Assembly (NCBI RefSeq): GCF_000455225.1
Contig: NZ_HF954537.1
Span: forward strand, 682,162-732,693
Direction: 5' to 3'
Length of the DNA: 50,532 nucleotides
Source: Megasphaera massiliensis
Lineage (GTDB): Bacteria > Bacillota > Negativicutes > Veillonellales > Megasphaeraceae
Positions 35,047 to 37,094 of the stretch are shown here, piece by piece; the stretch's first letter is position 1, and every line of letters begins with the position of its first letter. The notes under the pieces were generated by a model. The model searched no databases and was not told where the DNA came from. It saw nothing but the letters and a program-made list of their open reading frames with translations. The translations under genes were made by a program, and so were the position numbers.

Positions 35047-35391
35047 TTAGAACGGTGCCCAAGGATTCAGCCAACGATAGACCATCTGGTCAGCGCCAAA
35101 ATGGACGGCAATCATGCCGACGACAAAAACACCGACGGCACAAGTGCCCGCTTTAATCAGATTCTGCTTGGTAGCCAATCCCTTTACAGCTTCCTTCATG
35201 TCCTGCAGTTCCTCGGCGGCAGTCCTGTTTTCCATGGTGTCGGGCTCTTTCACTTCTTCGACGGTGTCCGTTTTCACGTCCGCAGCACTGCGTTCTTTCA
35301 GTTCGTGCCAAATGCAGGACTTGCACCACACCTTCCCATCAAAACGGACAACCTTCTTTTTCTTCCCGCAACAACTGCACTTCTTCTTCAT
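35047..35391 (-). CDS. Small zinc-ribbon protein with C-terminal membrane segment
   Basis: A 114-residue protein of unknown function. Two CxxC knuckles (CSCCGKKKKVVRFDGKVWCKSC) at residues 4-27 form a zinc ribbon. A charged, probably coiled middle part follows (KTDTVEEVKEPDTMENRTAAEELQDMKEAV, about 40-75), then one hydrophobic segment (TCAVGVFVVGMIAVHF) and a short WLNPWAPF tail. I chose the ATG at 35391 with GGAGGG upstream; the frame opens 6 codons earlier with TTG only. It has its own promoter and terminator, so it is a stand-alone gene. Confidence 0.7.
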   Translation of the reverse strand: MKKKCSCCGKKKKVVRFDGKVWCKSCIWHELKERSAADVKTDTVEEVKEPDTMENRTAAEELQDMKEAVKGLATKQNLIKAGTCAVGVFVVGMIAVHFGADQMVYRWLNPWAPF

Positions 35392-35458
35392 AATCCTTGC
35401 TCCCTCCAACCGACAGACTCACATCGGCCATCTTTTGTATATATGTTAGATTTATTTT

Positions 35459-35809: not shown

Positions 35810-36232
35810 TTATGTCCATTGAAGTTTCATAAACTTAGGATACTCTTCGCCTACATTGCCTACGAGTATAAAAGTCATATCCAGAAGAAATGCGGGATCA
35901 AAGTGATCCTTAATAAACAATGACCACTGCATGACAACATCGCCTGTATCTCTGACGAAAAACTTGCCAAATCGATACTTTAGATTGAGTTCATTAATCA
36001 ATTCCAATAAATTTTCTCGTTTTGAAGAATCTTCTATCTTGGCGATATCAAAAATTCTCACGTCTACAAAATTTTCTTCCTCTGGGAATTCAAAAACCAC
36101 CGTAAGTAACTGATTGTCTTTAATCTCGTGTTGAGCAATAAACCCCCGCGTCACGCCCTCCTTATCGGTGACCTCACGATAGCGATATTCTCTTTCATCC
36201 AGATGCTCTTTAAATAAATCCAGTTTACTCAT
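35810..36232 (-). CDS. YbjN-like small protein
   Basis: A 140-residue acidic protein resembling YbjN / type-III-chaperone-fold proteins: HLDEREYRYREVTDKEGVTRGFIAQHEI, LLTVVFEFPEEENFVDVRIF, ELINELNLKYRFGKFFVRDTGDVVMQWSLF. Such proteins have an alpha/beta chaperone-like fold and may bind peptides. No signal peptide. The ATG at 36232 has GGAGG upstream; an in-frame ATG four codons earlier contains that site. Base composition is visibly more AT-rich than the core genes, which suggests later acquisition. It lies in an island of small odd genes. Function is unknown. Confidence 0.65.
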   Translation of the reverse strand: MSKLDLFKEHLDEREYRYREVTDKEGVTRGFIAQHEIKDNQLLTVVFEFPEEENFVDVRIFDIAKIEDSSKRENLLELINELNLKYRFGKFFVRDTGDVVMQWSLFIKDHFDPAFLLDMTFILVGNVGEEYPKFMKLQWT

Positions 36233-36338
36233 CGTTACCTCCATGATAAAAACAAATACGTATCATAACTTTTATTGCTTTTATCATAACACAAATAACG
36301 CAGAGTCGTAAATATACGTACAAATTTGCCTAAACAAA

Positions 36339-36382
36339 GGCCTCCTTAGGGTTAACTTTTTAGAGCTAATCCTCAGGAGGTC
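36339..36382 (-). terminator. Composite hairpin after the XRE regulator gene (repeat copy 2)
   Basis: The outer stem GGCCTCCT/AGGAGGTC (one G-U) encloses an inner stem AGGGTTA/TAATCCT (one G-U) with a 12-nt loop. The minus-strand tail (TTTGTTT) is a weak T run. It shares its outer stem with the copies at 34740 and 44573. Confidence 0.6.
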
Positions 36383-36404: not shown

Positions 36405-36986
36405 CTAGACATGTATCTTAAACAAGCCGTCGCGATTGCAGTAGGCATAGATAAAGCCATGGCCCCGACTCATGAATCGGCACTGCGCATCCTGTTCAGG
36501 ATAGAGCTTGACCAGGGTATAGCGGTCGGCCGTTACATAGGCCATAAAGGAAATATAGTGCTCCTTAGTCATGGGATGGTCGATATGGACGAAGAACTCA
36601 TGTTCGATCATGTCATAGTTGATTTGATGAGCTGAAGAAGCGTCTTCCACCGTAAGGACCGGCAATTTGACGCCGCAGCAATTATAATCGCCTTCGCCGA
36701 AGGTGGTAATGATATTGCCGCAAATGGGACAGGCGTAAAACTTAAGTTTTTTCACATTGGCCGAGCGGTTATCATTGACGGCATATTCACCGGCAAAGAG
36801 TTCTGCCACCGAAATACCGAGAGCTTCCGCTAAGGGGGCTACCAAGGTAATATCCGGCAGGCCCTTCCCGGTCTCCCATTTCGAAATCGTCTTGTCGCTG
36901 ATACGCAGTTTCTCAGCTAATTCTTTTTGCGTGAGATTCCTTTTTTCACGCAGTTCTTTCAACATCGTTCCTGATATATAATTCAT
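36405..36986 (-). CDS. XRE-family regulator fused to a desulfoferrodoxin/superoxide-reductase-like domain
   Basis: A 193-residue protein. Residues 8-64 are a Cro/CI helix-turn-helix (LKELREKRNLTQKELAEKL, DKTISKWETGKGLPD). Residues 84-110 have a desulforedoxin-like knuckle with C86, C89, C103 and C104 (CPICGNI, NCCG). Residues 118-191 align with the iron site of superoxide reductases: H120, H137 in DHPM and H143 in KEHYI match three His ligands, and C183 in YCNRDG matches the Cys ligand. The fourth His (of CNxHG) is Asp 186. It is probably a redox- or metal-sensing repressor; target genes are not evident. AGAGG lies 8 nt before the ATG. No canonical oxygen-defence genes adjoin it. Confidence 0.75.
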   Translation of the reverse strand: MNYISGTMLKELREKRNLTQKELAEKLRISDKTISKWETGKGLPDITLVAPLAEALGISVAELFAGEYAVNDNRSANVKKLKFYACPICGNIITTFGEGDYNCCGVKLPVLTVEDASSAHQINYDMIEHEFFVHIDHPMTKEHYISFMAYVTADRYTLVKLYPEQDAQCRFMSRGHGFIYAYCNRDGLFKIHV

Positions 36987-37013: not shown

Positions 37014-37094
37014 TTATCTTAAAATAAAAGGGGCAATAATACTACCTACGCAGCGTAGAATCGTCTCCCCTCCGAAAATAAGCAGCTCAACCAT
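37014..37094 (-). CDS. Possible 26-codon hydrophobic leader ORF upstream of the XRE gene
   Basis: AAGGAG lies 4 nt before an ATG that opens a 26-codon frame reading MVELLIFGGETILRCVGSII and then APFILR, ending 27 nt before the XRE start. The peptide is hydrophobic with a basic end. A good ribosome site and its position suggest a leader peptide or small membrane peptide, but an ORF this short may occur by chance. The rest of the 36987-37338 gap holds only the MATE terminator. Confidence 0.2.
   Translation of the reverse strand: MVELLIFGGETILRCVGSIIAPFILR

Follow-up and report, generated by a model that had tools for sequence, protein, structure and literature searches.

Within the window, the whole 50,532-nucleotide stretch of Megasphaera massiliensis DNA that was analysed, the reverse strand carries at 36405..36986 a gene (ATG at 36986) for a 193-amino-acid HTH-Dx-SOR-like transcriptional regulator, as delimited by its open reading frame, Pfam matches and an AlphaFold model. 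An XRE/Cro-C1 type helix-turn-helix (HTH) occupies residues 6-67 (36786..36971, reverse strand); it matched HTH_3 and HTH_19 in Pfam, the former with an E value of 5e-18 and 65.2 bits against a cut-off of 23, which places the protein in the XRE family, and it shares the fold of the P22 c2 repressor (Z 11.8). This domain is followed by a desulforedoxin (Dx)-like Cys4 knuckle at residues 79-108 (36663..36752, reverse strand), recognised by profile alignment and by the cysteine spacing counted across the family, in which cysteines 86, 89, 103 and 104 form a CX2CX13CC motif. The remainder is a superoxide reductase (SOR)-like domain at residues 112-193 (36408..36653, reverse strand), placed by alignment and structure superposition, that contains H120, H137, H143, C183 and D186, and the GAC codon for D186 (36429..36431, reverse strand) stands at the position of SOR His119 in D. 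baarsii numbering. On the 3' side of the gene lies a strong hairpin (36339..36382, reverse strand; folding z -2.8 in a 105-base stretch) that may separate it from a YbjN-family gene and that was not called a terminator by the consensus scan. The YbjN-family gene lies just downstream (35810-36244) and, among 81 loci, was shared only with two Megasphaera relatives. We also noted at 35047-35409 a small protein with a zinc-ribbon-like start (CSCC...CKSC) and a membrane segment recognised by eye, for which Pfam gave no match better than E 0.13.

The C-terminal part of the regulator resembles the desulfoferrodoxins in both sequence and predicted structure. Residues 80-190 matched TIGR00320 with an E value of 9e-11, at a score of 42 bits that is far under the 146.9-bit cut-off, and the match to PF01880 was borderline, at 21.5 against a cut-off of 22.2 in one scan and at 22.7, above the cut-off, in a second. 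The desulfoferrodoxin-like part also matched PDB entry 2ji2 (E 8e-9), and the closest solved relatives of residues 80-190 were the desulfoferrodoxins of D. baarsii and D. desulfuricans. An AlphaFold model made from 76 sequences (mean pLDDT 92.2, pTM 0.72) could be superposed on the D. desulfuricans SOR (Z 13.9) and, at residues 80-193, on that of D. baarsii (Z 13.7). An earlier note, made from the sequence alone, had described the protein as an HTH linked with a desulforedoxin-like Cys4 knuckle and an SOR-like domain, and Pfam, TIGR00320, the profile alignment and the superpositions agree on this layout. The same note had claimed that three His and the Cys of the SOR centre are present with an Asp for the fourth His, and had named alignment with desulfoferrodoxins and structure prediction as ways to check it. 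The alignment bore the claim out, and the predicted structure supported the SOR fold: in the profile alignment of 76 sequences, on which residue numbers were counted by hand, H120, H137, H143, C183 and position 186 pair one-to-one with H49, H69, H75, C116 and H119 of the D. baarsii SOR, and model residues 77-192 superpose on the T. pallidum SOR with a Z of 15.1 (rmsd 2.0 A, 114 aligned). Centre II of SOR is described (PMC3116461) as having His at its four equatorial positions and Cys at the axial one. In place of this Fe(His)4(Cys) ligand set, the regulator has three His, an Asp and a Cys. The His near the Cys in SOR ligates iron via N-delta, and an Asp carboxylate can replace N-delta; D186 would be a reasonable metal ligand, and may still bind metal.

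The family alignment comprised 103 HTH-bearing members and 14 true SORs, duplicates removed, and drew on the best 80 of 535 protein-search relatives, a selection biased to close ones, and on 398 genomes of the phylum, 33 of which contained a match. C86, C89, C103, H137 and M139 were invariant in all 103 members, H143 and C183 were each conserved in 102, and at position 104 Cys was seen in 93 members and His in the other 10. Counted over 105 family rows, among them HTH-less copies, the gap between the second and third Dx cysteines was 13 residues in 103; in 11 of 12 true Dx-SORs it was 15 residues. Position 186 was His in 79 members, Asp in 22, Glu in one and Gly in one, and was His in all 14 SORs. 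H120 was present in 90 of the 103 members, with 11 of its 13 losses in a distant subfamily (n = 17) and the rest in two members, L030 and L066; the lost His was replaced by E, P, N, K, D or A, unlike position 186, where the replacement was almost only Asp. The absence of H120 from 11 of the 17 distant members suggests that the full five-ligand site is dispensable in some of the family.

The Lys that precedes the first His of SOR and is catalytic there was found in seven of the 103 family members (the M. massiliensis protein has Ala119), as against all 14 aligned SORs and all 30 PF01880 loci, two sets that share 12 proteins and so represent 32 of 32 distinct SOR-family proteins. The SOR Trp at position 147 (13 of 14 SORs) was absent from every one of the 103 members, 102 of which have Phe, and the SOR Trp at position 189 (14 of 14) remained in one member and was absent from 102. 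Some natural SORs deviate around the catalytic-Lys loop, and the Lys is not strictly defining. H120 and H186 occurred together in 69 of the 103 members, 68 of these also having C104. Set against the ligand counts, the losses of Lys and Trp suggest that the catalytic surroundings were lost before, or independently of, the ligand change. The view in the earlier note that one changed ligand retired the enzyme did not survive this comparison, since those 69 members retain both His and yet the catalytic Lys is missing in 96 of 103; its more general proposal, that an SOR-like site forms the basis of a regulator, was supported, and was strengthened by the conserved operator described below.

A tree built without trait columns by a quick search, which left 46 of 117 inner branches open, parted the HTH-Dx-SOR family from the SORs with a support of 100. 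On this tree, Asp at position 186 was gained in about six separate changes, at least three of them forced by starred branches. D186 is common to the regulator and two Megasphaera relatives (94% and 92% identical, with intact frames), and the sister pair of Veillonella ratti and another Veillonella sp. has H186, the codons being GAC for Asp versus CAT for His. The Veillonella ratti H186 protein and the Megasphaera D186 protein, which are 83-85% identical, form a natural pair. As judged from these sequences, D186 is a later, recurrent change, and the enzyme was not retired by it. Of the ten members in which position 104 is His, nine also have Asp at 186, and so combine swaps in two metal sites. 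Correlated evolution of C104H with D186 (nominal Fisher p 2e-6) was considered and rejected, as the association was not significant on the tree, where there are only two to three independent pairs.

The distribution of the gene in the genus was patchy, with 3 of 15 genomes carrying it. Of 72,556 plasmid records, two contained a relative, one of these records being 2.6 Mb in size, so that plasmids do not seem to be its usual carriers. Two other SOR genes, marked by EKH and CNLHG motifs, are present in the M. massiliensis genome; the products of both (L002 and L003) lack the Dx cysteines, and the C-terminal tail of L002 has two cysteines. Two further family loci, L119 and L121, are HTH-less copies of the regulator, L122 is a split copy, and L066 has lost several ligands.

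A conserved block upstream of the regulator gene was first seen when the DNA of five close relatives was aligned, and the upstream regions of the wider family share it. In M. massiliensis, the predicted operator TCTACGCTGCGTAGGT (37044..37059, reverse strand), conserved upstream of the regulator gene across the family, is followed by a predicted -10 box, TAAGAT (37016..37021, reverse strand), that begins 38 bases past the operator's first base and was absent from the output of the general promoter scan; the palindrome, ACTCTACGNNNCGTAGGTTG, overlaps the predicted -35 region. Of 84 distinct main-subfamily members (a set that excludes the duplicates or fragments L093, L096, L101 and L122; L055 and L057 had no usable upstream region), 78 have the motif TCTACGNNNCGTAGGT, with at most two mismatches, in the 160 bases upstream of the gene, as do, at the same threshold, five of 17 members of the distant subfamily. 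Shuffled upstream regions, 20 for each and preserving base composition only, not dinucleotides, reached a match in about 0.2% of cases. The operator was present in 20 of the 22 D186 members. Four upstream regions of the distant subfamily (L104, L107, L108 and L113) contain an altered site, approximately ACTCTACGGAGCGTTNATTG, in which the left half is retained and the right half changed.

The consensus of 83 operator sites was aCTCTACG NWN CGTAGGTtG, and in 55 of these a -10-like box begins 38 bases past the operator's first base, a spacing that would place the centre of the operator near -42.5, overlapping the -35. This position fits either repression, by blocking the -35, or activation, in the manner of lambda CI at OR2. 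The operator was flagged by the consensus scan, but we rejected the idea that it is an RNA stem or a terminator: the half-sites are fixed in sequence, and the paired positions show hardly any covariation, making a protein site more likely than an RNA structure.

We searched for the exact pattern TCTACNNNNCGTAGGTNG in 32 family genomes, which were hand-picked and include two species twice (G069/G419 and G354/G427), and found 26 sites in 24 of them, as against three for a reversed-pattern control. Twenty-four of these sites precede a regulator gene by 71-159 bases, among them one at a second copy in the same genome; the other two precede a flavoprotein-regulator pair in genome G261 and a flavoprotein gene alone in a Butyrivibrio genome. 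Among the 398 phylum genomes, the exact pattern was found in 11. Eleven of the 398 carry a full-length main-subfamily gene, and eight of these have the pattern; so do three of the 387 others, where no regulator adjoins the site. The association of exact site with gene carriage gave a Fisher p of 2e-12, a value that, like the other Fisher value given here, is nominal owing to relatedness. As the pattern was derived partly from the upstream regions of the 11 carriers, the eight of 11 do not form an independent test, and the three of 387 do. The reversed-pattern control gave about 31 hits (hand count) in the 398-genome scan, versus 11 genomes with the pattern itself.

Looser matches were uninformative. 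A longer pattern with up to two mismatches gave 62 matches across all 32 family genomes versus about 210 for its reversed control, and the extra two-mismatch sites that we inspected were mostly inside genes. The M. massiliensis genome has one exact site, and its weaker sites were not enriched (65, versus 223 with the pattern reversed); the signal is confined to exact sites at the regulator gene. Definition of a regulon by site search was likewise abandoned, as the two one-mismatch sites of this genome (L154 and L155) fall inside genes, and the operator-pattern scan of it produced no convincing target beyond the regulator's own site. Six of eight stretches inspected (L212, L213, L214, L216, L218 and L219) had the site in genes or without a clear target, and sensible targets were seen only in L215, with the Butyrivibrio flavoprotein, and L217, with the flavoprotein-regulator operon.

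Neighbouring genes were too varied to serve as a guide to function: in 81 flanks, the largest homologous clusters (MATE; ABC ATPases) comprised 11 loci and the flavoprotein cluster four, membership meaning presence somewhere in the flank, not adjacency. The MATE gene upstream of the regulator had no operator copy within two mismatches. The flavoproteins that recur as neighbours belong to the flavodoxin-fold NADPH-dependent FMN reductase family (PF03358; above cut-off in all five tested). We read in them a CX2CX2CX6-7C motif that fits the compact cysteine motif of iron-sulfur flavoproteins, given as CX2CX2CX5-7C (PMC3164229). The flavoprotein gene lies downstream of the regulator in L041, L051, L071 and L082, and upstream of it in one operon in G261 (L217), and it has an exact operator of its own in the Butyrivibrio genome (L215). 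This is the one recurring functional link, and it rests on few genomes, the independent cases being fewer still since L041 and L051 are near-copies. In one study, an iron-sulfur flavoprotein reportedly reacts with O2 and H2O2.

Computation supports the domains, the ligand alignment, and the conserved operator with its place before the gene; from these we infer operator binding by the regulator, its dimerisation, a bound metal, a signal and a direction of control. The explanation that we favour, and consider reasonably likely, is an autoregulated transcription factor whose SOR-like metal site senses redox or metal state. The presence of a conserved operator before the regulator's own gene makes autoregulation likely, and the dedicated site that gut-anaerobe relatives carry before their own gene points to probable self-control; the regulator thus probably controls its own gene, responding to oxygen, superoxide or metal. 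Sensing of O2, superoxide or iron is plausible, and is our best guess at the signal. In the mechanism that we envisage, the N-terminal HTH would bind, as a dimer, to ACTCTACGNNNCGTAGGTTG overlapping the -35 of its own promoter, and the Dx-SOR module, putatively derived from a 2Fe-SOR, would have lost the catalytic Lys and yet still bind metal. A change at the metal site (its oxidation, contact with O2 or superoxide, or loss of metal) would then alter DNA binding. D186 would be a lineage variant whose carboxylate probably retains the metal and shifts its affinity or redox behaviour. Counting against this explanation are the lack of a convincing second target in the M. massiliensis genome, the reversed-pattern controls that outnumber the real pattern in the wider scans, the varied neighbourhoods, the few genomes behind the flavoprotein link and the loss of H120 from 11 of the 17 distant members.

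The conserved ligands could alternatively belong to a purely structural Dx-SOR module, whose two sites contain zinc or iron that keeps the dimer assembled; the protein would then sense nothing, or another ligand. Structural zinc sites often tolerate Cys to His, and such a change at the Dx site is found in 10 of the 103 members, in line with this idea, as is the absence of H120 from most of the distant subfamily; we nevertheless regard it as unlikely, as the SOR-type ligands rank among the most conserved residues and position 186, where it changes, almost always becomes Asp, a sign of a tuned metal site. Genomes have roughly one exact operator each, in most cases in the regulator's own promoter. 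This would also suit a protein that is still active as a superoxide reductase, or that scavenges metal, and regulates its own production, with its own gene as main target, and all five centre-II ligands are indeed present in the 69 members noted above. The loss of the catalytic Lys from 96 of 103 members and of the SOR Trp residues from 103 (position 147) and 102 (position 189), the lack of one centre-II His in the M. massiliensis protein, and the two other SOR genes that its genome already has, make such an enzyme improbable.

We give very little credence to a decaying gene in which D186 and the other ligand losses are drift. The HTH-less and split copies in some genomes, the patchy occurrence in the genus and the loss of several ligands in L066 are what decay would produce, but the frames of the two close Megasphaera relatives are intact, 20 of 22 D186 members retain the operator and nearly always the other ligands too, and the replacement is repeatedly Asp. 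Returning to the metal-responsive, self-regulating transcription factor, a broader proposal can be made, tentatively: that an SOR iron centre has been converted into a metal-based transcriptional sensor in anaerobic Firmicutes and beyond, retuned by ligand swaps and equipped with its own operator and sometimes a flavoprotein. Repeated changes from His to Asp at the fourth ligand, and changes from Cys to His in the second site, would retune what the sensor detects, and the operator ACTCTACGNNNCGTAGGTTG would form an autogenous loop, sometimes also driving an O2/H2O2-reducing iron-sulfur flavoprotein.

To our knowledge, few direct superoxide or O2 sensors are known in anaerobes. Our literature search, which covered few subscription journals, returned no recognisable functional study of the HTH-Dx-SOR class, and nothing usable on SOR ligand mutants. 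The architecture is already known but apparently unstudied; the ligand change is real and recurrent, and the operator is described here. The conserved operator opens this unstudied class to direct tests, for which a single 20-bp probe and one protein would serve, together with the natural pair of H186 and D186 proteins.

The available text of SORGOdb (2011) lists 19 HTH-Dx-SOR proteins as a class, without function (PMC3116461), and these have the same order as the regulator, an N-terminal HTH, a desulforedoxin unit and an SOR unit. The Dx metal motif is worded there as CXXCX15CC (PMC3116461), whereas the regulator has all four Dx cysteines in the form CX2CX13CC, two residues shorter than in true Dx-SORs; it also has Asp where the SOR unit of the class has the fourth His, which 79 of the 103 relatives possess. 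Compared with the 2Fe-superoxide reductases or desulfoferrodoxins of D. baarsii and T. pallidum, residues 77-193 match in fold and in four of five centre-II ligands, but the regulator has an HTH in addition, does not have the E47-K48 pair that precedes the first His, has Asp at His119 and scores far under the cut-off. TrtA of Treponema denticola, an XRE-type protein of 104 amino acids linked to oxygen stress (PMC12724145), is an analogue at most: compared by description, it too is an XRE regulator from an anaerobe, and its residues after 81 are described in the available text as resembling no known functional protein (PMC12724145). With XRE/Cro-C1 repressors such as P22 c2, DdrO and CylR2, the regulator has in common the DNA-binding domain and a palindromic predicted operator, and it differs from them in that its effector domain is an SOR-like metal module.
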